From positions 1-44,466 of the forward strand of contig NZ_JAFEIF010000020.1 in assembly GCF_017848645.1 (NCBI RefSeq): a DNA stretch of 44,466 bases, written 5' to 3'. The position numbers and the translations under genes were made by a program. Each line of letters starts with the position of its first letter. Position 1 is the first letter of the stretch. The notes beneath the pieces are model-generated. The model had not been told where the DNA came from. It saw only the letters and a program-made list of their open reading frames with translations, and made no database searches. This DNA comes from Limnohabitans sp. (lineage in GTDB: Bacteria; Pseudomonadota; Gammaproteobacteria; Burkholderiales; Burkholderiaceae_C). This document shows positions 6,088 through 10,532 of the stretch, piece after piece.

Positions 6088-7017
<930 letters not shown>

Positions 7018-7019
7018 AG

Positions 7020-7046
7020 CACTTGAGGTTCAAGTGAGTGATTTTT
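7020..7046 (+). terminator. Possible terminator after ligB
   Basis: CACTTGA (7020-7026) and TCAAGTG (7030-7036) form a 7-base stem with a 3-base loop, followed after a few bases by ATTTTT. It starts directly after the ligB stop codon. If active it would separate ligB transcription from the inserted ATPase gene. The stem is A/T-rich and short, so termination may be weak. Confidence 0.4.
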
Positions 7047-7082
7047 ATCCTTGCATTTTGATATTTGATGTAACAAAATACA

Positions 7083-8288
7083 ATGATGATTGATCGCCTA
7101 TTTAACCGTGAGTTGCAAGATCGCTTGGACTATTCGCCCGGTGTGGTCTTGCTGGGTGCGCGACAGGTGGGCAAATCCACTCTGGCGCGAGCGTGGGCTG
7201 CACAATCATCAAATGCGGTTTTTTTGGATTTGGAATTGCCTGAAGACCGGGCCAAGCTGGACCAGGCGAGTGCATTTTTTGCAGCGAATCGAAGCCGCTT
7301 GGTCGTGCTTGACGAAGTGCAAACCATGCCTGAGTTGTTTGTACAGCTTCGCCCCGAAATCGATGCTGACCGCAGGCCGGGACGCTTTTTGCTCTTGGGC
7401 TCAGCCAGCGGCGCGTTGTTGCGGCAATCGGCAGAATCATTGGCTGGGCGTGTGAGCTATTTCGAATTGCCGCCATTGTTATGGAACGAAGTACACACCG
7501 CCTCTGTCAGTCAAGACTCCACACAGCAGTTGTTGGCCCTGCAAGCGCATTGGCAGCGTGGCGGTATGCCCTTGAGCACAATGGCCAAAACCGATGCGCA
7601 ATCACTGCGCTGGCGTAACGACTACTTGCAGTCCATCGTGCGGCGCGATTTACCCGCTTTGGGCATCACCATTCCGGGAGAAACGCTGTGGCGCTTCTTG
7701 CGCATGCTGGCGCACCAACATGGGCAATTGTTCAATGCGTCGAGCTTGGCCGTGGCCATGGGCGGTATCTCCCCCATCACAGTGGGTCGCTACCTCGATA
7801 TTTTTTGCGATGCACTGATCGTGCGAAAAGTGGAGCCGTATTTCGTCAACTTGGGCAAACGCTTGGTCAAGTCGCCCAAAATTTATTTTCGCGACACGGG
7901 TTTGTTGCACGCCTTGCTGGGCATTGGCAATGCCGATGACTTGCAGGGGCACCCGATGTCGGGCTATTCGTGGGAAGGGCTGGTGGTGAATCACATCGCA
8001 GCCTTGTTGCCCTTGATGGCGGGCGGCAACGCCACGCTCAATTTCTACCGCACAGCAGCAGGCGCAGAAATGGACGCGGTGGTGGACACCGGCTCTGAAC
8101 GCATCGGATTTGAAATCAAACTCTCTAACGCGCCGCGCGTGACCAAAGGTTTTTGGAACGCCTGCACCGATTTGCAACTGAGCCGCGCTTATGTGGTCGC
8201 CCCCGTCAGCTCATCCTGGCCCTTGGCCGACAACGCGCAAGTGATCCCGCTGTTGGATGTGGCACGGGTGTTGGGGGTGCAGACATGA
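7083..8288 (+). CDS. AAA ATPase with DUF4143 domain, inserted in the lig cluster
   Basis: The protein has 401 residues, full length for the AAA_14/DUF4143 family. The N-terminal ATPase part shows Walker A GARQVGKST (G25-T33) and Walker B RLVVLDEVQ. The C-terminal DUF4143 part includes KLSN near the end, part of a PD-(D/E)XK-like region often seen in this family. The biochemical role of such proteins is not settled. The gene starts at ATG 7083 (or ATG 7086) behind an AT-rich stretch, and its stop overlaps the start of the pentapeptide gene (ATGA), so the two are probably co-translated. It has no known link to protocatechuate metabolism and interrupts the ligB-ligC order. Codons are more relaxed and A/T-richer than in the flanking lig genes. 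Lateral gain as a two-gene unit is inferred. Confidence 0.85.
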   Translation: MMIDRLFNRELQDRLDYSPGVVLLGARQVGKSTLARAWAAQSSNAVFLDLELPEDRAKLDQASAFFAANRSRLVVLDEVQTMPELFVQLRPEIDADRRPGRFLLLGSASGALLRQSAESLAGRVSYFELPPLLWNEVHTASVSQDSTQQLLALQAHWQRGGMPLSTMAKTDAQSLRWRNDYLQSIVRRDLPALGITIPGETLWRFLRMLAHQHGQLFNASSLAVAMGGISPITVGRYLDIFCDALIVRKVEPYFVNLGKRLVKSPKIYFRDTGLLHALLGIGNADDLQGHPMSGYSWEGLVVNHIAALLPLMAGGNATLNFYRTAAGAEMDAVVDTGSERIGFEIKLSNAPRVTKGFWNACTDLQLSRAYVVAPVSSSWPLADNAQVIPLLDVARVLGVQT

Positions 8289-9541
8289 GTGACCATCCTG
8301 ACCTCGAAAAGCTCCCGCTGGAGATTGATGGCATTCCTGTGCGCGAAACCATCCGAGAGATTTTTCGCAACCCTGAGAATGGCACCCCGGACAACATCAG
8401 CAAGGCGGGGTGTTTGGCGTTGGCGTTGAAGAGCAATGAAGTGGGACGGTATGAGTTGAGGTACATGCATGTGGTTTGGAACGCTTGGCGTGAGCATTTT
8501 CCGACATCAAAGAGTGAGGATGTTTTAAAAGATTTTAATAATAAAGTGAATTTCGAATTTCATGATTTCAATCATGATTATTCTGTATTGGCTCCTACTT
8601 TATTCGATTGCTATTTATTCGGTGATATGCCATCTTTTTGGGGGGTAAATTTTGGTTTTGTGAATTTTAGAAAATCAAGTTTTGGTTTTAAATCTAGTTT
8701 TAATTTTTCAAAATTTCAAAAATCTGCATGCTTTGATGAGTCGAATTTTGGTGCTTTAACTTCATTTAATAATGCTGATTTTAATTCAAAATTATCATTT
8801 AAAAGATGTAAATTTTTTGGTGCAGTAGATTTTTCAATTAACGATAAAAATCATGAAAAATTCGGCGGTGCTATATCTTTTGATAATTCGGTTTTCAGTG
8901 GACCGGTTTCGTTCAATGGTAGAAAATTTGCAGATACAACCAGTTTTTTTAAATGCAATTTTGCAGAAGTGCCAACTTTTCACAGTTGCGAGTTAAATCA
9001 GGATACAAGCTTTGAAGGCTCAGTTTTTCCACCAGCCACAGGAAGCGAAGAAGCAGCCCGTGCTTATCGCACGCTCAAATTGGCTTTCAGCAAACAGCAA
9101 GCCATTCGAGAAGAGCAGCGGTTTTTTCGTTTGGAGATGGAAGAAGAAACGCTGCGTGAAACAGGCCTCAAGCGCTTGCTTTTTCAGGCGTACAAGACAT
9201 TCAGCGATTACGGGTTCAGCATCACCCGCCCGCTGAAATACGGTGGCTTGGCCGTGTTGGTTCTCACAGCTCTTTATGGCCTGTTGTCTTGGCTGGGGCA
9301 GTGTGGCCTGAGCGTGCAGGCTTGCCACTTTGCTCCGCAATGGCTGGAATTTTCACTGTTGCAGACCTTGCCATTGCCTGGCTTGGACAAATTGAGTGAA
9401 GCCGCCAGCAAAGCGTTTTGGCCTCAAGGTGCCTGGTGGAGTTTCGGCTTGTCGGCGCTGGTCATCCTCCACAAAACCCTCAGCCTCGCAGTCCTGTTCC
9501 TCATCGGCCTGGCCCTGCGCAACCTCTTCAAACTCAAATGA
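8285..9541 (+). CDS. Pentapeptide-repeat membrane protein with an AT-rich core
   Basis: The 418-residue protein has three parts. Residues 1 to about 75 have no clear family. Residues about 80-240 are rich in Phe, Asn, Ser and Lys, with Phe recurring every five residues (e.g. FWGVNFGFVNFRKSSFGF), as in a right-handed quadrilateral pentapeptide-repeat helix. A helical linker (EEAARAYRTLKLAF to about residue 300) leads to two membrane segments, near 318-338 and 390-412, with a loop of about 50 residues between. The DNA of the repeat part is strikingly AT-rich: 11, 16 and 10 G+C bases in the 60-base lines at 8521, 8641 and 8761. Both ends are near genome-like. It overlaps the ATPase gene by four bases. 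Function is unknown; an envelope, defence or toxin role is possible but unproven. Confidence 0.8.
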   Translation: MSDHPDLEKLPLEIDGIPVRETIREIFRNPENGTPDNISKAGCLALALKSNEVGRYELRYMHVVWNAWREHFPTSKSEDVLKDFNNKVNFEFHDFNHDYSVLAPTLFDCYLFGDMPSFWGVNFGFVNFRKSSFGFKSSFNFSKFQKSACFDESNFGALTSFNNADFNSKLSFKRCKFFGAVDFSINDKNHEKFGGAISFDNSVFSGPVSFNGRKFADTTSFFKCNFAEVPTFHSCELNQDTSFEGSVFPPATGSEEAARAYRTLKLAFSKQQAIREEQRFFRLEMEEETLRETGLKRLLFQAYKTFSDYGFSITRPLKYGGLAVLVLTALYGLLSWLGQCGLSVQACHFAPQWLEFSLLQTLPLPGLDKLSEAASKAFWPQGAWWSFGLSALVILHKTLSLAVLFLIGLALRNLFKLK

Positions 9542-9578
9542 TTTTTCAACACTTTCGCATGTTCAAAAGGAAACACAC

Positions 9579-10532
9579 ATGAGCAAACCCATCAAAGTCG
9601 CTCTCGCAGGCGCAGGTGCCTTCGGCATCAAACACCTGGACGGCATCCAAAACATCGACGGCGTGGAAGTCGTCTCGCTGATCGGCCGCGAGTTCGCCAA
9701 AACCAAAGAGGTGGCGGACAAATACGGCATTGCCCATGTCACCACCGACCTGAGTGAATCGTTGGCGTTGAAAGAAGTCGATGCCGTCATCTTGTGCACG
9801 CCCACACAAATGCACGCCAGCCAGACGCTGGCTTGCCTGAAGGCGGGCAAGCATGTGCAGGTGGAAATTCCGCTGTGTGATGTGTACAAGGACGGCCAGG
9901 AAGTGCTGCGTGTGCAAAAGGAAACGGGCCTGGTGGCCATGGTGGGCCACACCCGGCGCTTTAACCCCAGCCACCAGTGGGTCAACCACAAGATCAAGGC
10001 GGGCGAGTTCAACATCCAGCAGATGGACGTGCAGACCTATTTCTTTCGCCGCACCAACATGAACGCGCTGGGCCAGGCCCGCAGCTGGACCGACCACCTG
10101 CTGTGGCACCACGCCGCGCACACGGTGGACCTGTTCGCCTACCAGTGCGGCAGCCCGATTGTCAAAGCCAACGCGGTGCAAGGCCCGATCCACCCGACGC
10201 TGGGCATCGCCATGGACATGAGCATCCAGCTCAAAGCCGCCAACGGTGCGATCTGCACTTTGTCACTCAGCTTCAACAACGACGGGCCTTTGGGCACTTA
10301 CTTCCGCTACATCGGCGACACGGGCACCTACCTGGCGCGTTACGACGACCTGTTCACCGGCAAGGAGGAAAAGATCGATGTGTCGCAAGTGGCAGTGTCC
10401 ATGAACGGCATCGAACTGCAAGACCGTGAATTCTTCGCCGCGATCCGCGAAGGCCGCGAGCCCAACAGTTCCATCGCGCAAGTGTTGCCTTGCTACCAGG
10501 TCCTGCACGACCTGGAGCAACAACTGGCCTGA
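9579..10532 (+). CDS. ligC: 4-carboxy-2-hydroxymuconate-6-semialdehyde dehydrogenase
   Basis: This Gfo/Idh/MocA-family NAD(P)-dependent oxidoreductase oxidises the LigAB ring-cleavage product (in its cyclic hemiacetal form) to 2-pyrone-4,6-dicarboxylate (LigC; PmdC in Comamonas). The protein has 317 residues. A Rossmann N terminus, VALAGAGAFGIKHLDG, is followed by the family EIP-type motif (HVQVEIPLCD, in place of the usual EKP) and a C-terminal alpha/beta domain with HHAAHTVDLFAYQCG. AAAGGAAA lies just upstream of the ATG. It is separated from ligB by 2.6 kb of inserted genes and is followed two bases later by an MFS transporter. Whether it is read from the upstream lig promoter or from one inside the insertion cannot be told. 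Confidence 0.9.
   Translation: MSKPIKVALAGAGAFGIKHLDGIQNIDGVEVVSLIGREFAKTKEVADKYGIAHVTTDLSESLALKEVDAVILCTPTQMHASQTLACLKAGKHVQVEIPLCDVYKDGQEVLRVQKETGLVAMVGHTRRFNPSHQWVNHKIKAGEFNIQQMDVQTYFFRRTNMNALGQARSWTDHLLWHHAAHTVDLFAYQCGSPIVKANAVQGPIHPTLGIAMDMSIQLKAANGAICTLSLSFNNDGPLGTYFRYIGDTGTYLARYDDLFTGKEEKIDVSQVAVSMNGIELQDREFFAAIREGREPNSSIAQVLPCYQVLHDLEQQLA

Follow-up and report, generated by a model that had tools for sequence, protein, structure and literature searches.

A predicted ion channel with an exchangeable pentapeptide-repeat core, encoded next to an AAA_14/DUF4143 ATPase between ligB and ligC of Limnohabitans

Two overlapping genes, and nothing else, lie between ligB and ligC in a 44,466-nucleotide stretch of Limnohabitans sp. 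(contig NZ_JAFEIF010000020.1 of assembly GCF_017848645.1; the whole stretch is called the window here). Gene A (7083..8288, forward strand) encodes a 401-amino-acid AAA_14/DUF4143 ATPase, and gene B (8285..9541, forward strand) encodes a 418-amino-acid pentapeptide-repeat membrane protein. We propose that B is an ion channel whose core is swapped wholesale, and on balance we favor the view that the module is an anti-phage sensor and effector that works inside the cell. The anti-phage role is suggested by the defence-type company that these genes keep and by the diversity of the B core. A first-pass annotation of this DNA had described an AAA_14/DUF4143 gene and a pentapeptide-repeat gene with two C-terminal membrane segments that split ligB from ligC and overlap by ATGA. 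This description is confirmed: Pfam identifies the AAA_14, DUF4143, and pentapeptide-repeat domains, and the overlap is at 8285..8288 on the forward strand, with identical overlap coordinates in the genomes DM1 (G304 in our numbering), 2KL-17 (G316), and G300. That annotation did not mention the inverted repeat at the start codon of A, the low-GC (guanine plus cytosine) hypervariable core of B, or the channel-like C-terminus of B, all of which are described below.

The core stands out if B from the window is compared to B from DM1. At the DNA level (blastn), the two are 91.9% identical up to 8490 and 95.3% identical from 8972, with no alignment in between. At the protein level, the ends are 90-99% identical and the cores are 29-30% identical. 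We therefore divide the gene, on the forward strand, into a conserved N-terminal domain (8285..8490, residues 1 to about 68, a helical N-cap in the structural model); a hypervariable pentapeptide beta-helix core (8491..8971); a conserved rod end (8972..9046); and linker helices (residues 255-310) followed by a predicted channel domain (residues 314-417), which together span 9047..9538. The core of the window's B also has an unusual composition. Its GC content is 25-33% (8500-8999) inside ends of about 50-59%, and GC at third codon positions is 8-30% over most of its length, and 8-24% where it is lowest, versus 62-74% at both ends of the gene. These extremes are milder in the B cores of DM1 and 2KL-17.

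Other B proteins show a similar contrast between core and ends. The window's core is 23-40% identical to the core of each of the 60 homologs listed (of 120 computed), regardless of how similar the C-termini are; P0005 has a C-terminus that is 100% identical to the window's and a core that is 31% identical. Among 114 B proteins (7 of 121 were dropped because the anchors gave no usable N-terminal part or core), the C-termini were at least 70% identical in 952 pairs, for which the median core identity was 33-38% in each bin of C-terminal identity up to 95%. In the top bin (95-100%, 8 pairs) the median was 41%. In a set of 117 proteins (7 of 124 were dropped for the same reason), single linkage at 60% identity gave 86 core classes, and a single C-terminal group at 80% identity contained 40 of the 117. 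The protein collection was clustered at 90% identity, which hides near-identical alleles of B from these comparisons, and it draws many of its sequences from metagenomes. The three genome loci lie outside that clustering filter, and their pairwise core identities are 29-39%.

Cores can also be similar where the ends are not. In the 15 pairs whose cores are most alike, core identity is 74-99%. Some B proteins share cores at 84-98% identity although their channel ends are 54-58% identical, which requires exchange; in one pair, the core is 98% identical and the C-terminus is 58% identical. Within the 117 proteins, we found 776 ordered triples (with 21 distinct first members) in which one protein is the core partner (at least 70% identity) and a different protein, whose core is unlike, is the closer C-terminal partner. 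The clearest case involves three proteins. When the alignment is cut into blocks of 25 columns, P0086 and P0119 are 88-100% identical in 13 of blocks 1 to 15 but 20-48% identical in the five that follow. P0119 and P0120 show the reverse pattern, with the N-terminal end also common to both. Among these B proteins, then, cores have been joined to new ends many times.

Fast turnover of the repeat array, without exchange or selection for diversity, could also make cores diverge. It would fit with the range of core lengths (140 to 422 residues) and with the variation in core GC between alleles. However, turnover would not pair nearly identical cores with channel ends as different as those above, and in another genus the core and the ends stay in step (G765 versus G411, which are two species: N-terminal part 90, core 84, C-terminal part 94). 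Also, the core contains no long tandem array. We considered whether tandem repeats in the DNA drive the changes in the core and rejected this: there are three short rows in B, and the longest is two copies of 18 bases (8672-8707). We consider turnover alone to be very improbable.

It is likely that the rod is under pressure to vary. The synonymous distance of the C-terminal end of B (0.164) is similar to those of A (0.141) and ligC (0.183), so the frame of B seems to have been inherited with the locus while the core was replaced; for ligB, this distance is 0.283. Purifying selection acts on the C-terminal end of B and on gene A. At the N-terminal end, the nonsynonymous distance (dN) is 0.017 and the synonymous distance (dS) is 0.031, but these 50 codons are too short to judge selection. 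Homologous recombination within the conserved ends is the probable route by which new rods are acquired. A search for a rod donor with the core protein alone gave no homolog at E = 0.001 (108 candidates). We looked for retroelements only by way of a second, template-like copy of 8440-9020, and none was found in the genome at E ≤ 0.1.

Gene B matches Pentapeptide_3 (PF13576) with E = 2e-9 and 38 bits, above the curated cut-off of 27, and all 43 aligned B proteins match this family at E ≤ 0.5. MfpA, Qnr, and AlbG are soluble pentapeptide proteins that bind gyrase; in B, by contrast, the pentapeptide part is fused to a membrane domain. In AlphaFold2 models of B, the N-cap is followed by a beta-helix rod, then by a long helix, and finally by a domain with a transmembrane (TM) helix, a pore helix, and a second TM helix. 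The arrangement of TM1, pore helix, and TM2 is that of the pore-loop cation channels, as judged from predicted models alone and with middling scores, and the domain is similar to those of KcsA, NaK, and Kir and of HalA, the effector of the Hailong system. We predict that B forms an ion channel in the membrane. It has no evident signal peptide, and positive residues are found ahead of TM1 and at its C-terminus, so we infer that it lies in the inner membrane with its rod in the cytoplasm.

B differs from the tetrameric pore-loop channels (KcsA, NaK, Kir, and MloK1) in its pore sequence. TVGYG is the filter of K+-selective channels of this type. B has no TVGYG-type selectivity filter; instead it has SLLQTLPLPG at residues 357-366, within a largely conserved SLLQTLPLPG-DK. 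Every position of SLLQTLPLPG except T361 is retained in 31-41 of the 43 aligned proteins. B also has a rod domain rather than the known regulatory domains of these channels. The modelled channel domain resembles HalA (PDB 9nyi), although a search for sequence similarity between B and HalA found none. In the Hailong system, HalA, which consists of a binding domain, a linker, and a channel and binds oligo-dA, is encoded beside the nucleotidyltransferase HalB. No HalB-type gene adjoins B at ligB|ligC, where the neighbor is the AAA_14/DUF4143 gene, and B differs from HalA in its hypervariable pentapeptide rod.

Gene A is the usual neighbor of B in this genus, but the pairing is not strict. They might form an obligate two-gene system in which A powers or gates B by direct contact: at ligB|ligC, all three intact B genes in the genus follow A with the ATGA overlap, and G300 retains A next to a remnant of B. 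On the other hand, 10 of the 90 genus genomes (the window's among them) carry a homolog of A with at least 83% identity, five at ligB|ligC and five elsewhere. The five copies elsewhere (83-85% identity) have no B among the surrounding open reading frames or in those genomes, and G363 has A at ligB|ligC without B. Conversely, B occurs without an adjacent A in the same gap of a Hydrogenophaga metagenome-assembled genome (MAG) and in G029, G230, G411, G765, and G955, where the stretches contain no match to A (17 kb around B in G411 and G765; 16 kb in G955). Nor does A co-vary with the core: A is 97% identical between the window and DM1 despite the divergence of their rods, which also makes A an unlikely ligand of the rod. 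We consider the obligate pair to be unlikely. In our reading, A often accompanies B but is not its only possible partner. A is likely an independent passenger, a defence candidate of nuclease-like type, whose place YhcG (PDC-S02) can take.

B itself is rare. We found homologs in 5 of 299 genomes of the family (including the window's), in 3 of 327 genomes of a second, overlapping family sample, in 4 of 399 genomes of the order, and in 9 of 398 genomes of the phylum (at E = 1e-15; only the matches in the window's genome and in G955 span the full model). No B was found in viral contigs, plasmids, or phages. In the genus of G230, the only B among 29 genomes is that of G230 itself.

At glcE|glcF of G029 (L049 1752-9546), a short B is accompanied by a weak PIN match, YhcG (PDC-S02), PtuA and PtuB of Septu, and one further gene. 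The B at glcE|glcF of G230 (L050 5757-6785 and L051 6484-6807) is split by about 40 kb with phage portal and head genes; by eye, the junctions of this stretch resemble a transposable-phage insertion. In G955, the B homolog is directly downstream of bpX6 of a MoxR-vWA-beta-propeller ternary system (L123 8931-11849). Overall, the neighbors of B include PDC-S01, PDC-S02, Septu PtuAB, and toxin-antitoxin genes, with such companions at ligB|ligC and also at glcE|glcF. The first-pass annotation had suggested an envelope, toxin, or defence module, and this company makes the defence or toxin type plausible.

The envelope option deserves separate consideration. B might be a membrane scaffold or envelope protein whose rod varies under selection by factors other than phages, such as competitors, grazers, or surface chemistry. 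Pentapeptide rods are found in many unrelated proteins, none of the PADLOC defence families matches B, and some copies of B lie outside defence-type neighborhoods. But a rod that is probably cytoplasmic and a predicted pore-loop channel fold do not fit well with this explanation, and defence candidates accompany B at two different operons. We think that a scaffold or envelope role is doubtful.

The genes that flank the insert are ligB (6133..7017, forward strand), for the beta subunit of protocatechuate 4,5-dioxygenase (Pfam LigB, E = 2.8e-79; NCBIfam PRK13366.1, E = 9.6e-175), and the gene for a LigC-type oxidoreductase of the Gfo/Idh/MocA family (9579..10532, forward strand; Pfam OxRdtase_C, E = 3.2e-95). 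Two amidohydrolases, LigK, and LigA are encoded upstream of LigB. In our sample of 90 genomes from the genus, 84 have ligC, and in 83 the gap could be read across (G365 was left out as there is no ligB on its contig). The gap has no gene in 76 of these 83 genomes: it is at most 250 bases in 72 of them, and in the other 4 it is 257-379 bases long and matches neither A nor B. By eye, the 379-base gap of G318 (L078) contains a minisatellite-like array of the GGGTTTGTACAAAG-type unit between ligB and ligC.

The remaining seven gaps are occupied. The window's genome, DM1, and 2KL-17 have A and B; G300 has A and the remnant of B; G353 has a YhcG nuclease (PADLOC PDC-S02) and a 68-residue remnant of B; G363 has HigBA and A; and G337 has a TraB/GumN-family gene (L159 1342-2385). 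In G353 (L079), the N-terminal domain of the remnant leads straight into the final residues of the channel, and YhcG adjoins the remnant with a 4-base overlap, as in A and B. B is thus present in 5 of the 90 genomes, always at ligB|ligC. The gap of the Hydrogenophaga intermedia MAG holds a HigB-type gene, a helix-turn-helix gene, and B. This distribution supports a late gain of the insert at ligB|ligC. Lateral gain as a unit had been proposed in the first-pass annotation; the gain is supported, but the genes are not an obligate unit.

Could A and B be unrelated passengers in an operon gap that tolerates insertions? The gap does accept other sequences, such as the TraB/GumN gene of G337 and, in some other genomes, short intergenic repeats. 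However, A and the C-terminal end of B are under purifying selection, and genes of defence type recur at two operons, ligB|ligC and glcE|glcF. We view ordinary cargo as quite improbable.

The product of gene A matches Pfam AAA_14 (E = 5.8e-24) and DUF4143 (E = 3.5e-41), and its motifs are intact, with Walker A (GARQVGKST) at residues 25-33 and Walker B (VVLDEVQ) at residues 74-80. It also has E-x-D within residues 321-335 and E-x-K at residues 344-346; we take DUF4143 to be of the PD-(D/E)XK type. Residues 2-390 match the PADLOC model PDLC04790 for PDC-S01 (E = 2.7e-84), a candidate family of single AAA_14/DUF4143 genes. Here, A is followed by the overlapping B. The window's genome (G000) has four further DUF4143 genes above the family cut-off (C12, C44, C83, and C73) and one match below it (C63).

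An inverted repeat, TTGCATTTTG-13-CAAAATACAA (7051..7083, forward strand; arms at 7051-7060 and 7074-7083), ends in the start codon of A and is a predicted operator or leaderless promoter. By eye, all 20 homologs of A in the genus (L129-L148, including the window's) and several in other genera have a palindrome of the type CCTTGCA...TGCAAGG that runs into the start codon, so an operator-like sequence overlaps the start of A. The right arm of the window's copy is degraded. With a scoring script, 15 of the 20 reached a score of at least 10, as did 11 of 27 homologs from other genera (L167-L195; 2 of the 29 loci were left out because of contig ends), compared to 1 of 108 within-gene control stretches. 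The CCTTG arms are not in all 11 of the homologs from other genera. In our reading, this palindrome is a putative operator through which gene A controls itself, and a helix-turn-helix-like segment of its product (residues 217-250, judged by eye) may bind there. A ATCCTTGCAAA...TTTGCAAGGAT palindrome is present elsewhere in the window's genome (G000:C55:93103-93144, L166).

The first-pass annotation also noted a terminator-like hairpin ahead of A. The hairpin is there (7020..7036, forward strand; 7 pairs, 3 of them G-C, versus a mean of 0.1 in shuffles), but the case for a terminator is weak: DM1 and G300 have imperfect arms, the sequence is different in 2KL-17, and the RNA fold of the 53 bases around it is unremarkable (z = -0.80). 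We rejected it as a strong terminator given this fold.

If the module is an anti-phage system, then the rod of B would bind a phage-derived or phage-altered ligand in the cytoplasm, and the long helix would pass this signal on to the TM-pore-TM domain. The channel would then open and the infected cell would be stopped. This would be analogous to HalA, the ion-channel effector of the Hailong anti-phage system, which is reported to act once its DNA guard is lost (cited in PMC13275509).

Kaur et al. 2020 describe diversifying conflict systems that combine a constant module with fast-changing ones, and pentapeptide repeats are among the variable domains (PMC7159879). B is similar in that a constant frame is joined to a variable pentapeptide part. 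In those systems, effector domains change as a whole or are mutated by a reverse transcriptase, whereas in B a single internal rod is replaced. Our search of the open-licence literature (subscription papers were outside the search) turned up no account of a pentapeptide channel with a hypervariable core. We tentatively suggest that B could be the founding member of a class of bacterial immune receptors, namely ion channels gated by a solenoid whose sensing rod is traded between strains as a cassette, with swappable nuclease companions (PDC-S01 and PDC-S02) and homes in catabolic operons. By analogy, B would then be a single-protein bacterial counterpart of the polymorphic solenoid receptors.

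The PADLOC candidates PDC-S01 and PDC-S02 gain a recurring partner from these results, and the gaps of catabolic operons (ligB|ligC and glcE|glcF) are places to look for small defence genes. If our proposal is correct, the HalA-like channel effectors would also include a family that diversifies, and natural allele swaps could reveal what a bacterial immune sensor recognizes. Freshwater bacteria would then share a large stock of rods for recognition inside the cell, all of them exchangeable on one channel frame.
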